From contig NZ_SDMK01000004.1 of the NCBI RefSeq assembly GCF_004123295.1, forward strand, positions 124,001 to 188,000: a stretch of DNA of 64,000 nucleotides, read 5' to 3'. Of the stretch, positions 53,014-63,523 are shown one piece after another; within the stretch, counting starts at the first letter, position 1; each line of letters opens with the position of its first letter. The DNA comes from Silvibacterium dinghuense. Its GTDB lineage: Bacteria > Acidobacteriota > Terriglobia > Terriglobales > Acidobacteriaceae. The position numbers were made by a program, and so were the translations under genes. The notes beneath the pieces are model-generated. The model did no database searches. It was given only the letters and a program-made list of their open reading frames with translations, and was not told where the DNA came from.

Positions 53014-54363
53014 GTGACCCTCGCGACCCTGCCCCTCGGCCTCATCCTCGGCATTGAAAGCTCCTGCGACGAGACCGCCGCCGCCATCGTCGAGCGCGGT
53101 ACCGTCATGCGCGCCAACGTGGTCGCCTCCCAGATCGCCACGCACTCGCCCTACGGCGGCGTGGTGCCCGAGCTGGCCTCGCGCGAGCACCTGCGCAACA
53201 TCGTGCCCGTCGTTCGAGCAGCCATGGAGCAGGCCAGCCTGAAGCTCTCCGACATCGACGCCATCGCCGTCACCTCCGGCCCCGGCCTCGCCGGAGCGCT
53301 CATGGTCGGCATCAGCTATGCCAAGGCGCTGGCCTTCGCGCTCGGCAAGCCGCTCATCGCCGTGAATCATCTCGAAGGCCACATCCACGCCGTGCTGCTG
53401 GCGCAGAGCGCGGTGTTACAGAATCAGCCACAGGCCCAGCTCGCCGAGACCGAAGACCGCACGCTGCCCGAAGGGCCGGTGCTCGCCCTGGTCGTCTCCG
53501 GCGGACACACCCACCTCTATCTCGCCCGCCGCCGCGGCGAAAGCTGGACCTATCGCAACGTGGGCCGCACGCTCGACGACGCCGCCGGCGAGGCCTACGA
53601 CAAGGTGGCCAAGCTGCTCGGCCTCGGCTACCCCGGCGGTCCGTGGATCGACGCGCTGGCCGCGCACGGCAATCCGCACGCCGTGCCTTTCGCCATCTCC
53701 AACATCAAGGCCAAGGCCCATCGCGGAGGCCGCAAGGGCATCACCTCCTACATGGCCAACAAAGCTGCCGTCCCAACCGGGTCCACGGCCAAACAAGCTG
53801 TCATCCCGACCGGAGCGGAGCCCGAAGGGCGAAGCGAAGCGGAGGGACCTGCGGTTCCCCTCGCTGTGGACCATGACCCCGAATTCACAGAAACCTTGTT
53901 CTCCTTCAGCGGCATCAAGACTGCGGTACTCCGCTATACGCAGGTGCACGAGATGCAGGCGTCCATCGAACATCGCCGCGCCGTGCTGGCGACCATGCCC
54001 GACGCCAAGCCCTCGACCGCGCTGGCCGAGGTGCTGGCCGTCTGCGACCAGCCGACACTCGACCTGATCGCCAGCTTCCAGCGCGCCGTCGTCGACGATC
54101 TCCGCCGCAAGACCTTCCGCACCGCCGAGGCTCTTGGAGCAACCACGCTGCTGGTCTCCGGAGGCGTGGCCGCCAACCGCGAGCTGCGCGTCCGCTTCAC
54201 CGCCGAAGCCGCCGACCGCGACCTCTTCATCGCCTTCCCCTCACTCGCCCTATCGACCGACAACGCCGCCATGATCGCCGCCGCCGCGTGGCCCAAGTTC
54301 CTAGCAAGAGACTTCGCCGCGGAAACACTGTCCGCCGATCCGGGACTGGCGCTGGGAAGGTAG
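53014..54363 (+). CDS. tsaD: tRNA N6-adenosine threonylcarbamoyltransferase TsaD, with repeat-derived insert
   Basis: A 449-residue catalytic subunit of the t6A37 tRNA modification machinery. The ATP/Fe site motifs LGIESSCDETAAAIV, VTSGPGLAGALMVG, the metal-binding HLEGHIHA, LVVSGGHTHLYL and FSFSGIKTAVLRY are intact. The usual length is about 340-370 residues; the excess sits at about residues 240-290, before FSGIKTAV. Residues 262-283 (IPTGAEPEGRSEAEGPAVPL) translate the type B repeat TGTCATCCCGACCGGAGCG. The GTG start follows a weak site. The insert falls in a surface loop, so activity may be retained. Confidence 0.93.
   Translation: MTLATLPLGLILGIESSCDETAAAIVERGTVMRANVVASQIATHSPYGGVVPELASREHLRNIVPVVRAAMEQASLKLSDIDAIAVTSGPGLAGALMVGISYAKALAFALGKPLIAVNHLEGHIHAVLLAQSAVLQNQPQAQLAETEDRTLPEGPVLALVVSGGHTHLYLARRRGESWTYRNVGRTLDDAAGEAYDKVAKLLGLGYPGGPWIDALAAHGNPHAVPFAISNIKAKAHRGGRKGITSYMANKAAVPTGSTAKQAVIPTGAEPEGRSEAEGPAVPLAVDHDPEFTETLFSFSGIKTAVLRYTQVHEMQASIEHRRAVLATMPDAKPSTALAEVLAVCDQPTLDLIASFQRAVVDDLRRKTFRTAEALGATTLLVSGGVAANRELRVRFTAEAADRDLFIAFPSLALSTDNAAMIAAAAWPKFLARDFAAETLSADPGLALGR
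53799..53862. repeat. Type B repeat fragment inside tsaD
   Basis: TGTCATCCCGACCGGAGCGG followed by GAGGGACCTGCGGTTCCCCT, the sequence found at the inner ends of the MITE-like elements and in mosaic clusters. Here it lies in frame within a coding sequence, with no frameshift or stop. Confidence 0.75.
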
Positions 54364-54772: not shown

Positions 54773-54814
54773 GTCGAACCGCCTCGCATCTAGAGTAACG
54801 GCATGCTGGTGCTT

Positions 54815-55026
54815 TCCATCTCGCGCCGTTCGAGATGTGGGTTCGCAGGGTTCCGAAAATCGGCAAGAGGTCCATATCCGCCCCACTCAAGCCAAAATCA
54901 GGCTTGCATGGGCCACCGATCAGAAATCGCGACCAACGGGAGCGCCACGCGAAGCGAAAGGCCTGGACGGCCAGTCCCGCGACCAGCGGGAGCGTCGTGC
55001 GAAGCGGAGGGCCCGGACGGCTAGTC
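54815..55026. repeat. Mosaic dispersed repeat cluster (type A)
   Basis: A degraded palindrome (CCATCTCGCGCCGTTCGAGATGTGGG) is followed by the GCTTGCATGGGCC stem. Two successive GCGACCAACGGGAGCGCC / GCGACCAGCGGGAGCGTC blocks and two GGACGGCCAGTCCC blocks come next, the last overlapping the end of the reverse transcriptase gene. Confidence 0.75.
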
Positions 55027-56367
55027 CCCCCACGCAATCCTCTCCAGCAGCTCGCGCAAATGTCCGGCACGCGCCGGATTCACCATCGTGGCAAAGGCCA
55101 CCTTCCCCTCCAGATGCCGCCGAAAGTCGGCGTGCCCATCGCGATTCTGCCCTTCCGGCCCATGACGCACGCAGTTGGTCAGGATCGCCTCCAGCCGCTC
55201 CAGCTCACGCCGCGGCAGCTGCGGCTGCGCGTTCACCGTCAGTCCGGCCAGGTGCTGGCGCACACCGCGCCGCATCAACCGCGTTTTGCGCGGATGGACA
55301 GCAAACCCTTCTTCGGCGGCGATGGCCGCTACCCGAAGCGCGAAGCGCTCCGCCCCGCGCGCGAACAGTGCGTCTCCGGAGAAGGCAAGGTCGTCCGCAT
55401 AGCGCGTATACGTCACACCTGCCTTTTCCGCGAGCCCGCCGATCCGCCGGTCAAGCCGCAGCGCGCAGAGATTCGCGATCGCGGGAGAGGTGGGAGCGCC
55501 CTGCGGCAGATGTGGCCGGGCGTAGAAGATGCGCGCATCCTGCAGATCGGCGGCGCTCAGTTCGCAGCCCGTGTTGCGCCAGACCCCGCGCGGCGTGGTC
55601 GCCGTGCACAGGCCGCCCAGCAGGTCGGCCACCGGCTCCGGATAGCCCAGCGTGCGGAAAAGTGCCTGCACGCGGGGACCGGAGATGGAAGGGAAAAAAT
55701 CCCGGAGGTCCATGCGAAGCACAACCTCGCGCCCTGCATGCGGCGCGGCGAAGCTGACGATCGAGCGGCCCCGGCGGAAGCCGTGCGCCGCCGGATGCGG
55801 TGGAACCGGCGCAAGAATCTCCCGCAGGATGCGCCGCTGCATGCTCTTGAGCCGCGGCCCCGGAACCTCCAGCAGGCGGATGGCGCCGTACGGCTTCGCC
55901 AGCACCCGGCAGGTGTAATGCTTCAGCCGATCGCCCCCGGCCTTACGATTCCAGTCCCGAAGATCGGCGAACCACAGCAGCTGCCCGGCCTCGACCTCGA
56001 GCCATGCGGCCAGGCTGCCTGCGGTTTCGAGCACTACCGGCGCCGTTCCCGGAATCGGCAACATGCGCAGCGGCACGGAGACAAGAGGAAGCTGCCGCAG
56101 CCCATGCCGCTCGATGAGCCGCACAAGCCTCGGCTCGGCGCGGAGCTGCTCGATGAATCTTCGTATCCGTGGCCGCGGACGCGTCGATGCCCACCCGACC
56201 GTACGCACCGCGAGCGGTCTCAGCCGTCCCGGCGGCGGCTCCGCGCGAAACGCCGTGCGGAGAATCTGCAGATGCGGCTCGACCGCTTGCTCTGCAGAGA
56301 GAAGCGCATGCGCCAGGGAAAGAAACTCGTTGCTGGAATGGGAGAGAGGCTGCAGCGGACGCTCCAA
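55021..56367 (-). CDS. Retron-type reverse transcriptase
   Basis: A reverse transcriptase of up to 448 residues. Motifs in order: QLLWFADLRDWNR leading into KHYTCRVLAKPYGAIRLLEVP; PHPAAHGFRRGRSIV; RMDLRDFFPSISGPRV (palm Asp); FYARPHLPQGAPTSPAIANL; YTRYADDLAFSG (YADD, about 320-325); FAVHPRKTRLMRRGVRQHLAGLTVN (the retron-like L-GL-VN signature). It lacks the maturase and nuclease domains of group II intron proteins. The N-terminal 140 residues form an Arg-rich extension as in myxobacterial retron enzymes. The TTG start at 56367 overlaps the a2 arm of the upstream RNA, so the real start may be further in. No second effector gene is adjacent. Confidence 0.85.
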   Translation of the reverse strand: MERPLQPLSHSSNEFLSLAHALLSAEQAVEPHLQILRTAFRAEPPPGRLRPLAVRTVGWASTRPRPRIRRFIEQLRAEPRLVRLIERHGLRQLPLVSVPLRMLPIPGTAPVVLETAGSLAAWLEVEAGQLLWFADLRDWNRKAGGDRLKHYTCRVLAKPYGAIRLLEVPGPRLKSMQRRILREILAPVPPHPAAHGFRRGRSIVSFAAPHAGREVVLRMDLRDFFPSISGPRVQALFRTLGYPEPVADLLGGLCTATTPRGVWRNTGCELSAADLQDARIFYARPHLPQGAPTSPAIANLCALRLDRRIGGLAEKAGVTYTRYADDLAFSGDALFARGAERFALRVAAIAAEEGFAVHPRKTRLMRRGVRQHLAGLTVNAQPQLPRRELERLEAILTNCVRHGPEGQNRDGHADFRRHLEGKVAFATMVNPARAGHLRELLERIAWGD

Positions 56368-56554: not shown

Positions 56555-56708
56555 CTCATCCGCCCCACTCAAACCAAAACCAGGCTTGCATGGGCCACCA
56601 TCTCAGATCGCGACCAACGGGAGCGCCACGCGAAGGCGATCCGCCCCACGCGCAGTGGCGACCAAAGGGAGCGGGTGCCGAAGGCGGAAGGCCTGGACGG
56701 CCAGTCCT
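56555..56708. repeat. Mosaic repeat blocks without palindrome
   Basis: Carries the CACTCAAACCAAAACCAGGCTTGCATGGGCC stem, then GCGACCAACGGGAGCGCC, GCGACCAAAGGGAGCGGG and CCTGGACGGCCAGTCC. The central A palindrome is absent here. Ends 57 bp before trxB. Confidence 0.7.
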
Positions 56709-56764: not shown

Positions 56765-57697
56765 ATGTCTGAGATTCGCGATACCGTCATCCTCGGCTCC
56801 GGCTGCGCCGGCCTTACCGCCGCCATCTACGCCGCTCGTGCCAACCTCAAGCCCCTCGTCCTCGAAGGCCATGAGCCCGGCGGACAGCTCTCCATCACCA
56901 CGCTGGTCGAGAACTTTCCCGGCTGGCCGGAGGGCATCCAGGGCCCGCAGCTCATCGAGAACATGAAGCAGCAGGCCGCCCGCTTCGGCACCGAGTTCCG
57001 CATGGCGCACCTGGTCTCGGCCGACCTGTCGAAGCATCCCTTCACGCTCAACCTGGGCAAGGAGACCGTGCTCACCCGCACGCTCATCATCGCCTCGGGA
57101 GCATCGGCGCGCTGGCTCGGTCTGCCCTCCGAACAGGCCCTCATCGGCCACGGCGTCAGCTCCTGCGCGACCTGCGACGGCTTCTTCTTCTCCGGCAAGG
57201 AGATCGCAGTGGTCGGCGGCGGCGACTCGGCCATGGAAGAAGCGCTCTTCCTGACCCGCTTCGCCTCCAAGGTCACGCTGCTCCATCGCCGCGAACACTT
57301 CCGCGCCTCGCACATCATGCTCGAGCGCGCCATGGCGCACCCCAACATTGCCTTCCGCACCAACACCGCGGTCGAAGAGGTGATCGGCGTCGAAGACAAG
57401 GAAGTCAAGGGTCTGAAACTGCGCGATACCGTCACCGGCGAGCGCTCCGAGTTGCCTATCAGCGGCCTCTTCCTGGGCATCGGCCACGAGCCGAACGCCA
57501 GGATGTTCGCCGGGCAGATCGACCTCGATGACGACGGCTACATCGTCACCCGCGACAACGTCCACACCCGCGTTCCCGGCGTCTACGCCTGCGGCGACGT
57601 GCAGGATCGCCGCTACCGCCAGGCCATCACCGCCGCCGGCTCCGGCTGCATGGCCGCGCTCGAAGTGGAGAAGTACCTCGAAGAGCACGGCCGCTAA
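56765..57697 (+). CDS. trxB: Thioredoxin reductase
   Basis: A 310-residue flavoprotein that passes electrons from NADPH to thioredoxin. FAD motif VILGSGCAGLTAAIYAARANL at the N-terminus, redox-active CATC in SCATCDGFF (about residues 134-137), NADPH motif VVGGGDSAMEEALFL and the FAD ribityl motif GVYACGDVQDRRYRQAITAAGSGC. Standard length. The gene after it is 78 bp downstream and may be transcribed with it. Confidence 0.94.
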   Translation: MSEIRDTVILGSGCAGLTAAIYAARANLKPLVLEGHEPGGQLSITTLVENFPGWPEGIQGPQLIENMKQQAARFGTEFRMAHLVSADLSKHPFTLNLGKETVLTRTLIIASGASARWLGLPSEQALIGHGVSSCATCDGFFFSGKEIAVVGGGDSAMEEALFLTRFASKVTLLHRREHFRASHIMLERAMAHPNIAFRTNTAVEEVIGVEDKEVKGLKLRDTVTGERSELPISGLFLGIGHEPNARMFAGQIDLDDDGYIVTRDNVHTRVPGVYACGDVQDRRYRQAITAAGSGCMAALEVEKYLEEHGR

Positions 57698-57977: not shown

Positions 57978-58245
57978 TTCAGGGCTCAGGGCTCAGGGCT
58001 CAGGGCTCAGGGCTCAGGGCTCAGGGCTCAGGGCTCAGGGCTCAGGGCTCAGGGCTCAGGGCTCAGATAGATCGTAAAACCCGGGTGCCCCACATCTCGC
58101 GCTGTTCGAGATGTGGGCTCGCAGGATCGTAGGTTCGCGACCAGCGGGAGCGCCACGCGAAGCGAAACGCCGGGACGGCCAAGTCCCGCGACCAGCGGGA
58201 GCGGGGGCCGAAGGCGATTCGCCCTGCGCGCAGCAGTCCTTCCCA
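57978..58245. repeat. 12-copy CAGGGCT tandem array plus type A mosaic repeat
   Basis: Twelve head-to-tail heptamers (57980-58064), then CTCAGATAGATCGTAAAACCCGGGTGCCCCACATCTCGC / TTCGAGATGTGGGCTCGCAGG. The GCGACCAGCGGGAGCGCC, GGGACGGCCAAGTCCC and CGCCCTGCGCGCAGCAG blocks follow. The same flank occurs with a single heptamer at 5815. Confidence 0.85.
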
Positions 58246-58381: not shown

Positions 58382-61327
58382 ATGGATGCTGCATCCCCAC
58401 GCAACCCACGCCGTATCCGAGCCCTCATCCGGCTCTGCTGCGCCGCCGTGGGCTGCATCCTCGGACTCCTGGGCGCGTCTCCTGCGCTCGCCGGCGGCCC
58501 GCGCTGGGTCGCCGGCCCTGCCTATTTCAACGCCTCTGCGCTCGGCCAGCCCGTGGTCTGGTCCGGAGGGCAGGTCAACTACTACGTCGATCTCGGCGCC
58601 CTCAGCGCCACCGAGGCCAACGGCCCGGCGACCACGCTCGTGACCAACGCCGCCGCGATCTGGAACGCCATCTCCACCGCCGCCGTCCAGCTCACCTTCA
58701 AGGGCAACCTGGCCGAGAACGTCAGCGGCAGCAACGTCACCAACACCAGCGGCGTCCTCTCCGAGCCCGCCGACATCCAGCCCACCGCCACCACCAGGCC
58801 GGTCGCTGTCATCTTCGACGCCGACGGCTCGGTTCTCAATACCCTCTACGGCTCCGGCGCCAGCGACCCCACCGTCTGCCCCCAGACCGGCGTTTACACG
58901 CAGGTCGACAACATGACCGCCGACGGCCATATCGCCCACGCCCTCATGATCGTCAACGGCCTCTGCGCCACCAACGCCGGCATGTACGCCGTGCTGGAGT
59001 ACCAGATCATCCGCGCCTTCGGACGCATCCTCGGCCTCGACTGGTCGCAGGCCAACGAGGAGCAGTTCGCCGCCAGCTCTCCTACCTCCGACGACCTCGC
59101 CGGCTGGCCCATGATGCACCCGGTCGAACGGCTCTGCCTCGAGAACGCCGAGACCTGCCTGCCCGCCCCCACCACGCTGCGCACCGACGACATCGCCGCC
59201 CTCAATCGCCTCTACCCGGTCACCTCGGCCAACCAGTCGTCCTGGCCGACAAAGAAGCTCACCGCCGCCAACACCCTCACCGTCCGCGGCACCGTCAGCT
59301 TCCGCAACGGACAGGGCATGCAGGGGGTCAACGCCGTCCTGCGCCCCATCAACGTCCTCACCGGCCTGCCCGATCTCCGCTACACGGCGACAGCCGTCAC
59401 CGGCGCATACTTCGCAGGCAACGCAGGCTCTGTGATCGCCGCCGCGCCCGCCTCTACCACGTATCTGCCCGGCTCCTTCGGCAGCGACGACACCACGCTC
59501 GAGGGCTACTACGAGATCAGCGGCGTCCCACTGCCCGCAGGTGAAACCTCGGCCAGCTACCAGCTCACCTTCGAGGCAGTGAACCCGCTCTACACGCAGA
59601 AAGAGTCGGTCGGAGCCTACCTCACCGGCCAGGTCACGCCCTCCGGCACCATGCCCACGCTCTCGCTCGGCGCGCTTGCCGCAGGCTCCAGCCTTACCCA
59701 GGACGTCACCATCGACGACTCCGCGGAAGAGACCTTTTCCGGCAACGACGGCAGCCAGGGCTCTCCCGCAGCGTTACCGCAAAGCGGCGAATGGACCGCC
59801 CGCCTCAACGGTTACGGACATGCCAGCTGGTTTGCCTTCCAGCCCAAGGCCAACCGCGAGTACACCATCGAAGCCCAGGCGCTCGATGACAGCGCCGAAG
59901 CCACCATCGACAAGGCCATGCCGCTCATCGGCGCATGGAACGCCTCCGACGATCTGAACGCGACTCCCGACCTCTCGATCACACAGCCCTTCAACGGTGG
60001 TGTACTCGGCCTGAGCCGACTCCTGGTCATCACCAGTGCGACAGGCGAAGAACGCGTAGCCATGGCCGATGCCCGCGGTGACGGCCGTCCCGATTATCTT
60101 TACCGCGGCCGCATCCTTTACGCCGACTCCGTCCAGCCTGCACATCTGCCTGCAGCCGGCGGCCCTGTCGTCATCGAAGGCACCGGCTTCCGCATCGACT
60201 CGGTGGTCAAGGTGAACGGCACGGCAGCGGAAATCACCAGCATCTCGCCGAATGAGATCACCGCCATGGCTCCGGCCTCCGGAGGCGTCACCGGCACCGT
60301 GCAGGTGGAAGTCGACGATCCCGAGACCCTCGGCGTCACCATCATCGCCGACGGCCTCGCCTACACCGCGCAATCCGGCGACACGCTCACCCTGGTCAGC
60401 GCCCCCACCGGCTCCATTCCCATGAGTGTGCCCCAGTCCGTCACCGTCCGCGCCATGAACTGGGACGACGAGTGGCCGGCCGCCAATGTTCCCGTCACCT
60501 TTGCGGTCACCGGAGGCTCAGCCGCCCTCGGCTGCGGCCAGAGCACCTGCACGGTCGCCACCAACGCCGACGGCACGGCCACGCTCAGCGTCAGCGCCAC
60601 CACCACCGCTCTTGCCCAGCTCACCGCCTCCATCTCGAGCGGCGCCTCGGTCCTCAGCGTATTCACCGGAGCCGCTCCGCCAACCGTCAGCGCGCTCACA
60701 CCCGATCTCTATCTCGCCATCGGTGGCGCCGCGACGTGGACACCGCAGGCGCTTGTGCTCAACGCCGGCAGCCCGCTCGCCGGAGCCGCCGTCACCTGGT
60801 CCACGACCGCCTCCGATGTCTCGCTCGGCACCGCCTCGAGCACGACAGCCGGCACCGGCATTGCCACGCAGACCCTCGCCGCCGGTCCCTTCACCGCCGG
60901 CGAAGCCGAAACCGTCAGCGCCTGCTACGGCACCAGCTGCGCGGCCTTCACTCTCTATGCCGTCCACCTTGAAACCGCGGTCCTTGTCCCGGTCAGCGGC
61001 ACCAGTCAGCAGACCGCTCCCGGCACCGCCTTCAGCCCCGTCACCCTCGAGGTCACCGACGCCATCGGACACCCCGTGGCCGGCGCCCCGGTCATCTTTT
61101 ACGAGACGCTCCGCGCCTGGACCGATCCCTGCCCCACGCAGGGCAGCTGCCCAACAGCCCCGATCCTCGGCCAGGCCACCATACAGACCATCTCCGCAGC
61201 CGATGGCACCGTCACGCTCACTCCCATGTCTCTGAGCGGCCAGCCCGGACGTCTCTCCCTCCTCGCTGTCACCGGCCCCAACGCCACCTACAGCTTCGAG
61301 CTCGACAGCCCCGCTCCCACCGAATAG
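58382..61327 (+). CDS. Large secreted protein: degenerate metzincin-like domain plus TIG/Ig-like repeats
   Basis: A 981-residue exported protein. The signal peptide (RLCCAAVGCILGLLGASPALA) is followed by a domain of about 260 residues that resembles matrixin-like metalloproteases: HIAHALMIVNGLCATNAGMYAVLEYQIIRAFGRILGLDWSQ. Where a metzincin would have HExxHxxGxxH, this protein has RAFGRILGLDW, so all His ligands and the catalytic Glu are lost. A TIG/IPT-like region follows (VVIEGTGFRIDSVVKVNGTAAEI, about 590-650), then bacterial Ig-like repeats (about 670-960). It is probably a surface or adhesion pseudo-enzyme. Transport and partner are unknown. Confidence 0.75.
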   Translation: MDAASPRNPRRIRALIRLCCAAVGCILGLLGASPALAGGPRWVAGPAYFNASALGQPVVWSGGQVNYYVDLGALSATEANGPATTLVTNAAAIWNAISTAAVQLTFKGNLAENVSGSNVTNTSGVLSEPADIQPTATTRPVAVIFDADGSVLNTLYGSGASDPTVCPQTGVYTQVDNMTADGHIAHALMIVNGLCATNAGMYAVLEYQIIRAFGRILGLDWSQANEEQFAASSPTSDDLAGWPMMHPVERLCLENAETCLPAPTTLRTDDIAALNRLYPVTSANQSSWPTKKLTAANTLTVRGTVSFRNGQGMQGVNAVLRPINVLTGLPDLRYTATAVTGAYFAGNAGSVIAAAPASTTYLPGSFGSDDTTLEGYYEISGVPLPAGETSASYQLTFEAVNPLYTQKESVGAYLTGQVTPSGTMPTLSLGALAAGSSLTQDVTIDDSAEETFSGNDGSQGSPAALPQSGEWTARLNGYGHASWFAFQPKANREYTIEAQALDDSAEATIDKAMPLIGAWNASDDLNATPDLSITQPFNGGVLGLSRLLVITSATGEERVAMADARGDGRPDYLYRGRILYADSVQPAHLPAAGGPVVIEGTGFRIDSVVKVNGTAAEITSISPNEITAMAPASGGVTGTVQVEVDDPETLGVTIIADGLAYTAQSGDTLTLVSAPTGSIPMSVPQSVTVRAMNWDDEWPAANVPVTFAVTGGSAALGCGQSTCTVATNADGTATLSVSATTTALAQLTASISSGASVLSVFTGAAPPTVSALTPDLYLAIGGAATWTPQALVLNAGSPLAGAAVTWSTTASDVSLGTASSTTAGTGIATQTLAAGPFTAGEAETVSACYGTSCAAFTLYAVHLETAVLVPVSGTSQQTAPGTAFSPVTLEVTDAIGHPVAGAPVIFYETLRAWTDPCPTQGSCPTAPILGQATIQTISAADGTVTLTPMSLSGQPGRLSLLAVTGPNATYSFELDSPAPTE

Positions 61328-61334
61328 CTGCTGC

Positions 61335-61800
61335 GCGCAGGGCGATTCGTCTTCGGCACCCGCTTCCTGGGTGCCCACCCATGACAGTTTTTTGCCATGG
61401 GTGGGTCTCACTCGAACCTTGAAATAAGCCACGACCGGGAATTCCGCACCCCGCCGACATCCCCCGGTTCGCGCCAAGAACGCCAGGTTCCGCAAAGCTC
61501 GCGAAGATAGTTCAGGAAAAAGCAAACATGGATGCCCCACATCGCGTTCTGTTCGAAATGTGGGTTTGCAGGATTTCCTACTCCCCACTCAAGCCAAAAC
61601 CGGGCTTGAATGGGCCACCGTCGGGAGTTCGTGCTTTCCCACATCTCAAAGTCGAGATGTGGGGCACCCGTTTTGTCACCACGGCATAGGACTCGGATAG
61701 CGACCAGCGGGAGCGGGGGCCGAAGGCGAATCGCCCTGCGCGAAGCAGCAACCAAAGGGAGCGGAGGCCGGAGGCAAAAAGCCGCGCGGTTAGCGCCGCG
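61335..61800. repeat. Mosaic dispersed repeat cluster (types A and A2)
   Basis: The A2 stem (CCCACCCATGACAGTTTTTTGCCATGGGTGGG) is followed by an ACGCCAGGTTCCGCAAAGCTCGCG block, a degraded A palindrome (GCCCCACATCGCGTTCTGTTCGAAATGTGGG) and the AAGCCAAAACCGGGCTTGAATGGGCC stem. A perfect inverse A copy comes next (CCCACATCTCAAAGTCGAGATGTGGGGCACCC), then GCGACCAGCGGGAGCGGG and AACCAAAGGGAGCGG blocks. The remaining 110 bp before 61912 show no gene. Confidence 0.8.
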
Positions 61801-61911: not shown

Positions 61912-63273
61912 ATGAACACGACACCGCAAACGCACGACTCCGCCGCCCGCAATCTATGGTCTTTCGGCCAGAAAGCCATCGCCGGCGCGCTCGTTTACCT
62001 GATGATTCCCATGGGCGTGGCCGATATGTGGGCGCAGGAAGCTCCGCCCCCGCCGCCGCCCGACCAGGCCACCGCCCAGCCCTACGATCAGGGTCCGCAG
62101 CAGGGCACGCCGCCGCAGGCCTACAACGCGCTCAGCCCGGACCAGCTCGATCAGCTCGTCGCGCCGATTGCGCTCTATCCCGACGCACTTGTAGCCCAGA
62201 TCCTTGCCGCGTCCACTTACCCCTCACAGGTCGTTGAGGCGGACCGCTTCGTCCAGACGCACCCCAACTATCCACCCGACCAGCTCGGCCAGATGGTCGA
62301 CGGCATGAACTGGGATCCCAGCGTCAAGGCTCTGATTGCCTTCCCCTCGGTGCTCTCCAACCTGGATCGCAATCTCGACTGGACCAGCCAGCTGGGCAAT
62401 GCCTACTACAACCAGCCGCAGGACGTGATGGCCTCCGTGCAGGCCATGCGCCAGCGCGCCTACCAGACCGGCAGCCTGCGCTCCAATGAGCAGATTGCGG
62501 TCGAATACCAGCCGAGCGAGATCGTCATCGCCCCGGCGAACCCGGCTGTCGTCTACGTGCCCTACTACAACCCCTGGGTCGTCTATGGCGGACCTGTGGT
62601 TGCATGGCCCGGCTACTACGTCGCCGCACCGCCGGTCGGCGTGGCCATCGGTGTCGGACTGGCCATCGGCTTCGGTATCGGCATCGCCATCGGCGGCTGG
62701 AACCATTGGGGCTGGGGATGGCATAGCTGGGGCTGCGGATGGGGCGCGCACACCATCGTCTACCAGCGCAACGTCTACGTCTCCCGCAGCGTGACGGTCA
62801 TCAACCACGGCTACTACGGCCACTTTGACCGTGCCCCGGGCGCCCGCGCCTACAACGCCAGCATGGCCTCCCGCGCAGCCGCCTTCCATGGCGGAGCGAA
62901 CGGCTTCAATCGTGGCGGCGTGAACAACTTTAACCGTGGCGGAGCTACCGGTTTCAATCGCGGTGGTGCTGCCGACTTCAATCGCGGAGGAGCGGCCAGC
63001 AATTTCAATCGCGGCGGAGCCCAAAGCTTCAACCGTGGAAACACCGCTCAGGGCTTCAACCGCGGTGCAACCGGTGCCCAGAACTTTAACCGCGGCACGA
63101 CGGGCGCACAGAACTTCAATCGCGGAAACGCCGGTAGCGCGGCGCGTCCTGCTGGAAATGCGGCACGCCCGAGCGGCGGCGCACAGCGCCCGGCAGCCAG
63201 CGCATCGCATGCCGGTGGCGGCGGCCATCCTTCCGGCCATCCCTCCGGTGGCGGTCATCCTCACAACCGCTAA
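61912..63273 (+). CDS. DUF3300 exported protein with FNRGG tandem repeats
   Basis: A 453-residue protein. The Tat-less signal (ALVYLMIPMGVADMWAQ) leads to a Pro-rich stretch and the DUF3300 domain (LDQLVAPIALYPDALVAQILAASTYPSQVVEADRF, then MNWDPSVKALIAFPSVLSNL and IAPANPAVVYVPYYNPWVVYG). A Gly/Trp-rich segment and ten or so FNRGGA-type repeats (about 325-405) end in a His/Gly tail. The function of DUF3300 is unknown; envelope-associated roles have been suggested by context. AGGAGAT-like site GGGAGATGAGG precedes the ATG. Confidence 0.85.
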   Translation: MNTTPQTHDSAARNLWSFGQKAIAGALVYLMIPMGVADMWAQEAPPPPPPDQATAQPYDQGPQQGTPPQAYNALSPDQLDQLVAPIALYPDALVAQILAASTYPSQVVEADRFVQTHPNYPPDQLGQMVDGMNWDPSVKALIAFPSVLSNLDRNLDWTSQLGNAYYNQPQDVMASVQAMRQRAYQTGSLRSNEQIAVEYQPSEIVIAPANPAVVYVPYYNPWVVYGGPVVAWPGYYVAAPPVGVAIGVGLAIGFGIGIAIGGWNHWGWGWHSWGCGWGAHTIVYQRNVYVSRSVTVINHGYYGHFDRAPGARAYNASMASRAAAFHGGANGFNRGGVNNFNRGGATGFNRGGAADFNRGGAASNFNRGGAQSFNRGNTAQGFNRGATGAQNFNRGTTGAQNFNRGNAGSAARPAGNAARPSGGAQRPAASASHAGGGGHPSGHPSGGGHPHNR

Positions 63274-63424: not shown

Positions 63425-63523
63425 AAGGGACCCCTCGTTCCATAACGAACAAGAGAGAAGGTGCGGACATTCCCGCGCCTCGGAGAAGGTTCCGCGCATC
63501 AAGTAGTGGTAAGAGGAGAGAGG

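Follow-up and report, generated by a model that had tools for sequence, protein, structure and literature searches.

The window, a stretch of 64,000 nucleotides from Silvibacterium dinghuense, carries a gene that raises the question of what a matrixin-like protease domain does once its zinc ligands have been replaced. The first-pass annotation had described the product as a large secreted protein with a dead protease head and an Ig-like tail, and had suggested a binding or decoy role. Heads that carry the replaced motif are called dead here, and heads that keep the H, E, H and H of HExxHxxGxxH are called live. The features of the gene and its upstream neighbour were as follows.

56765 to 57697, plus strand: thioredoxin reductase gene, the upstream neighbour (TIGR01292, 392.7 bits; cut-off 343.45)
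58382 to 61327, plus strand: coding sequence of 981 amino acids, an open frame whose homologues in related genomes have a similar length
58382 to 58492, plus strand: putative signal peptide, residues 1-37, recognised by eye from a hydrophobic stretch and SPALA before a conserved GGP
58493 to 59230, plus strand: dead matrixin-type head, residues 38-283, from profile, alignment and AlphaFold model
58715 to 58717, plus strand: codon of E112 (E in 118/120 dead and 8/82 live heads)
58772 to 58774, plus strand: codon of D131 (D in 120/120 dead heads, a gap in 79/82 live heads)
58814 to 58831, plus strand: FDADGS, a calcium-type loop by sequence, common to live and dead relatives
58877 to 58966, plus strand: C166-C195, a probable new disulfide, from Cys conservation in dead heads
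58937 to 58939, plus strand: codon of H186 (H in 120/120 dead and 0/44 live heads)
59012 to 59044, plus strand: RAFGRILGLDW replacing HExxHxxGxxH, residues 211-221, from ORF translation and alignment
59111 to 59128, plus strand: MMHPVE, the Met-turn counterpart (M245), from alignment
59135 to 59158, plus strand: C252-C259, a probable second disulfide, from Cys conservation in dead heads
59270 to 59701, plus strand: second domain, CarboxypepD_reg-like, about residues 297-440 with approximate borders, common to HExxH sisters
59738 to 60121, plus strand: third domain, residues 453-580, a collagen-binding/PPC-like beta-sandwich, from fold alignment of the model
60125 to 60337, plus strand: IPT/TIG domain, residues 582-652 (PF01833, 39.5 bits; cut-off 20.9)
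60725 to 60880, plus strand: Big_1 Ig-like domain, residues 782-833, the best of three stretches (PF02369, 46.6 bits; cut-off 34.9)

The translation confirmed the replaced motif, which reads R, A, R and W where matrixins have H, E, H and H. All three histidines and the catalytic glutamate were absent, as had been claimed. The FDADGS loop and the Met-turn-like MMHPVE were both found where they had been placed, in columns shared with live relatives, and the head ended near 59230, close to the end of the feature originally marked. The length of 981 residues and the putative signal peptide agreed with the description of a large secreted protein, which would be exported through this peptide. Since GGP follows directly, no propeptide was visible. 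The Ig-like tail was likewise recovered, as the TIG domain and the three Big_1 stretches. Neither Pfam nor NCBIfam gave any match to the first 303 residues, which is a warning for annotation because the head is invisible to both. No promoter or terminator was found in a scan for them, the Rfam scan found no family, and a plasmid search for copies of the gene gave no match.

Relatives that keep HExxH were compared with the dead head. Homologues with 30-38% identity were found in the family and the class, with frames of 446-555 amino acids (about 450-560 for those at class level) and the second domain in common. With a live profile built from eight HExxH relatives, the window protein was recovered (E 8.4e-37), the match spanning the head and the second domain at window positions 58460-59542. 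In a limited first look, the window genome was queried with a single HExxH protein, which failed to bring up the window gene; the reverse search, like the profile search, did recover it. Profile-profile comparison (hhalign) of dead and HExxH heads gave a probability of 99.5 and an E of 2.2e-23 with the motif columns in register. This register is not chance because the columns of D146 (120/120 dead, 82/82 live), G149 (120/120 and 81/82), G214 (120/120 and 82/82), the Met-turn M245 (117/120 and 78/82 by alignment) and D269-D270 were shared by dead and live heads. Pfam Peptidase_M10 (PF00413) touched all seven of the more distant HExxH relatives, four of them above the cut-off of 24 (25.8, 36.6, 24.3 and 26.5 bits), and CarboxypepD_reg touched six of the seven, all below cut-off. 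Sequence searches of the PDB gave little. The best rows for the live profile were viral glycoproteins at E 0.01, judged to be chance, followed by archaemetzincin (0.16), karilysin (0.42) and MMPs (0.86-0.99), and the dead profile gave azurin (0.15) and OvoM (0.37). Judged from the profiles and alignments, the head is homologous to HExxH matrixins. Such matrixin-like proteins, present at family, class and phylum level (among them L048-L054), share with the dead clade the GG-P start behind the signal peptide, the DxDG loop, the Met-turn, and both the head and the second domain. However, they keep H, E, H and H and are without H186, C166 and C195.

Structure prediction was consistent with this ancestry. 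The head was modelled with AlphaFold from 16 sequences, at moderate confidence (mean pLDDT 59, pTM 0.62). The strands and helices of the model followed the metzincin order, with R211 on the long helix where HExxH would sit. The C-terminal subdomain was poor, with pLDDT below 50 over much of its length. The model was aligned by VIA-align with chains preselected by Foldseek, and 49 of the 50 rows listed were titled as matrixins, and 2w0d had a title that did not say. The top row was karilysin (Z 8.2, 137 aligned residues, 3.7 A). Foldseek alone was weak, with acutolysin C best at E 0.069 and rows of ADAMTS4, MMPs and profragilysin intermixed with unrelated folds. A Z near 8 is weak by itself, yet it agrees with the sequence evidence. 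The modelled fold of residues about 38-234 resembled the catalytic domains of karilysin and vertebrate MMPs, although these are active zinc enzymes with 11% identity. The moderate-confidence model thus pointed to a metzincin fold and not another, and an N-terminal metzincin subdomain with its active-site helix is probably present. The matrixin-like character claimed for the head was upheld by the profile matches to HExxH relatives and by the dominance of matrixins among the VIA-align rows.

We then asked how general the motif loss is. Among 233 homologous ORF pieces read, 144 had R at the first motif position, 84 had H, E, H and H, and five fell short of the motif and were excluded ahead of counting. 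Filtering left out heads contained in another and those with no more than 200 aligned residues, which gave 202 distinct heads, 120 dead and 82 live. H, E, H and H were intact in 82/82 live heads, some of which had N or S for the motif glycine. In the 120 dead heads, the first position was R without exception. The second was A in 74, V in 23 and another residue in 23, including one E. Position 5 was R in 101, Q in seven and another residue in 12, with no H, and position 11 was W in 88, Y in 19, F in five, S in three, H in one and another residue in four. The closest to an intermediate was L215 (G748), which reads RAFGLVLGLGH and is the sole dead-type head keeping the third His; it may be a relic or a reversal. 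A HExxH elsewhere in the chain was discounted, being present in 0/120 dead-type ORFs, many of them partial in the stretches read.

In the phylum-wide search, all 57 matches outside the window's family were read as live. Among 26 of the 31 weak matches to the dead profile in class genomes, 25 were read as live and one was a further piece of a dead gene. All 12 sister-type loci were live, 11 by pattern and L243 by reading. In a tree of 135 heads, a single branch (SH-aLRT 100, stem 1.63) separated the dead from the live heads, and the tree of 202 heads gave the identical split (SH-aLRT 100, stem 0.99); both trees were quick and without an outgroup. The direction was probably from live to dead because HExxH is general elsewhere. 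These results indicated that the motif loss is a fixed clade trait and not a local accident. The alignment of homologues that the first-pass annotation had proposed placed 120/202 heads in the dead type. The annotation had considered one protein, and the finding that the replacement residues themselves are fixed across the clade is new.

The distribution of the clade was followed with profiles. The dead-clade profile gave strong matches (E 7.6e-93 or better) in 80 of 399 class genomes, all within the window's own family, and the next match was at 6.7e-34. Among 396 phylum genomes there were 36 strong matches, again all in that family. In these genome counts the dead type means a profile match, and the motif was read in part of the matches. 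The 17 named loci were 13 Acidobacteriaceae, three Terracidiphilus and one Acidobacteria. Some genomes of the family had neither the dead nor the live form.

The dead head is under purifying selection. Among 68 close dead pairs, the 25 closest gave dN/dS values of 0.065-0.18 (Nei-Gojobori, 289-303 codons); these overlapping pairs are not independent of one another. Catalytic residues have been lost in a conserved, intact and selected gene, which on the sequence evidence makes the head a probable pseudopeptidase. Besides H186, D131 and E112, several residues had become fixed in the dead clade. C166 was found in 120/120 dead heads versus 0/82 live heads, C195 in 119/120 versus 0/44 in a smaller alignment, and C259 in 117/120 versus 0/82. 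C252 occurred in 117/120 dead heads versus 18/82 live heads, so it was not exclusive to the dead clade. Residue 246, which follows the Met-turn methionine, changed from F or Y in 78/82 live heads to H or Q in 115/120 dead heads. D176 had appeared dead-specific in the first alignments and was dropped, as D was also found in 34/82 live heads of the larger alignment. This pattern of fixed residues looked like rebuilding, not decay. The dead form is kept under strong selection in relatives, so it probably grips something rather than cuts.

These results favoured a reading to which we gave a probability of about 60%. In it, a true matrixin-type head would have been repurposed. Zinc binding and catalysis would have been lost a single time, on the stem lineage of a clade seen among the searched genomes only in the window's own family (Acidobacteriaceae by the titles of named loci), and the head would then have been rebuilt and retained as a non-catalytic binding module. 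The protein would leave the cell through its putative signal peptide. Head, PPC-like sandwich, TIG and Big_1 domains would together make up a long extracytoplasmic binder of several domains. By analogy with ADAM22 and LGI1, the rebuilt head would most likely grip a protein or matrix ligand. The absence of catalysis, the binding, and the role of the new invariant residues as its site are what we infer. A dead, non-catalytic head, as first proposed, was therefore left as the most likely reading of the sequence. In a more specific form, which we hold only tentatively, R211 with H186, D131, E112 and the two disulfide braces would make an invariant charged site that recognises one kind of ligand family-wide, an independent bacterial counterpart of the ADAM22 type. 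Since dead and live forms are split across many genomes with fixed replacements, the clade offers a natural experiment on the conversion of a zinc protease to another role, with residues worth testing marked out by the alignment.

The closest working parallel came from animal ADAMs. According to a 2024 review (PMC11266112), the dead heads of ADAM11, ADAM22 and ADAM23 bind LGI proteins, ADAM22 with LGI1. These are metzincin heads with lost zinc ligands, as in the dead clade, and in the sequences given there ADAM11 and ADAM23 read Q...Q...W where the dead clade reads R...R/Q...W (PMC11266112). However, the three ADAMs are animal, membrane-bound proteins of family M12, adamalysin type, with a disintegrin domain and a known ligand. 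Ancestry of the motif loss is not shared between them and the dead clade. The metzincin pseudopeptidases in a passage of that review's table were animal ADAMs of M12, and the passage held no M10 or bacterial metzincin case (PMC11266112). Searches of open-licence PMC text showed no description of a bacterial matrixin pseudopeptidase.

The domains behind the head were examined in a model of residues 37-580, which was poorer than the head model (pTM 0.41). In the third domain, pLDDT taken over tens of residues lay at 55-84 from model residue 421 onward. It aligned with the collagen-binding domain of ColG (Z 12.4, 108 aligned residues, 2.6 A), that of ColH (Z 12.1) and a collagenase PPC domain (10.9). 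Other sandwich folds followed at Z 8-11, including PliG (11.2) and GOLD domains. The modelled fold was like that of clostridial and Bacillus collagenase collagen-binding/PPC domains at 10-15% identity. Even with E allowed up to 1, Pfam PPC did not match the window protein. The third domain thus resembles a collagen-binding/PPC-like fold, although this sandwich is a common one, and binding by it would follow from the fold alone. TIG and Big_1 were found in four further dead members tested, with Big_1 of L031 below cut-off, and neither was found in four HExxH sisters tested. Some dead-type frames were longer (G381:C5, 2218 amino acids; G336:C5, 1343; G804:C4, 1398; G806:C3, 1381) and perhaps carry extra rear domains.

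Rear domains of kinds used in binding also suit a different explanation, in which the head is merely a module for folding, export or spacing and any binding falls to the PPC-like, TIG and Big_1 domains. Some pseudopeptidase domains of sperm ADAMs are discarded as unnecessary, as the review describes (PMC11266112). However, the fixed polar residues R211, H186, D131 and E112 look like surface or site residues and exceed what a spacer needs, and we considered this explanation unlikely. The same clade-specific invariant His, Asp, Glu and Arg might instead give the rebuilt cleft a new chemistry or a new metal site, so that the head would be another kind of enzyme. Such a site would need these residues to lie close together in space, and no known enzyme was alike by sequence in Pfam, NCBIfam or the PDB. 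This made a new enzyme improbable.

A head and second domain common to dead and live forms would also fit a regulator or decoy of a live protease, acting by competition for substrates or inhibitors or by pairing with a HExxH sister. Strong matches to the live profile (E 4.6e-83 or better) were found in 12 of 200 family genomes, a count confined to sister-type proteins. Six of these 12 also had a dead-type match, in a survey that undercounts the dead type since it missed G042, which holds one. However, the window genome had no HExxH sister, the one match of the live profile there being the window gene itself, and weak live-type matches were found in only 2/80 class genomes with the dead type. 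General regulation of a HExxH sister was rejected on these genome counts, and the decoy role raised at first was judged improbable. A few copies were split or cut (L016 in two frames; L078), but a decaying pseudogene whose active site rotted first was rejected as very improbable on the dN/dS, with frames of about 1000 amino acids in many genomes and replacement residues identical across the clade.

The repurposed head thus remained the preferred reading, and its gene neighbourhood was inspected. Of 18 loci, the window included, 12 had an ORF homologous to the thioredoxin reductase close to the gene; several loci lacked the flank. A partnership between this reductase and the new Cys pairs was considered, and the proximity was left as coincidence. 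The oxidoreductase at 63461 had counterparts in 6/18 loci. Further upstream, a retron-type reverse transcriptase was located at 55021-56367 on the minus strand (Pfam RVT_1 1.2e-18; PADLOC RT_other 7e-149 and RT_outgroup 1.8e-140; NCBIfam retron_St85 1.6e-47, below cut-off), and no Rfam family was found near it at the gathering threshold. The tsaD gene at 53014-54363 on the plus strand gave a TIGR03723 match split into two stretches, and a low-complexity in-frame insertion was seen by eye near its residues 236-300.

Repeats were frequent around the gene. Interspersed intergenic repeats of about 50 nucleotides (GCGACCA..GGGAGCG) were located at 54927-55028, 56602-56706, 58135-58236, 61327-61367 (inverted) and 61692-61796. 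One lay directly upstream of the 981-residue gene, and another began at its stop codon. Further 42-nucleotide repeat families were found at 54808, 58084 and 61531, and at 54876, 56558 and 61578. About 315 bases ahead of the gene, a tandem array at 57979-58066 contained 12.6 perfect 7-nucleotide units (TCAGGGC). Downstream, a DUF3300 protein at 61912-63273 on the plus strand (PF11737, 2.1e-66) showed an FNRG-rich repetitive tail encoded by 24- and 30-nucleotide tandem units.
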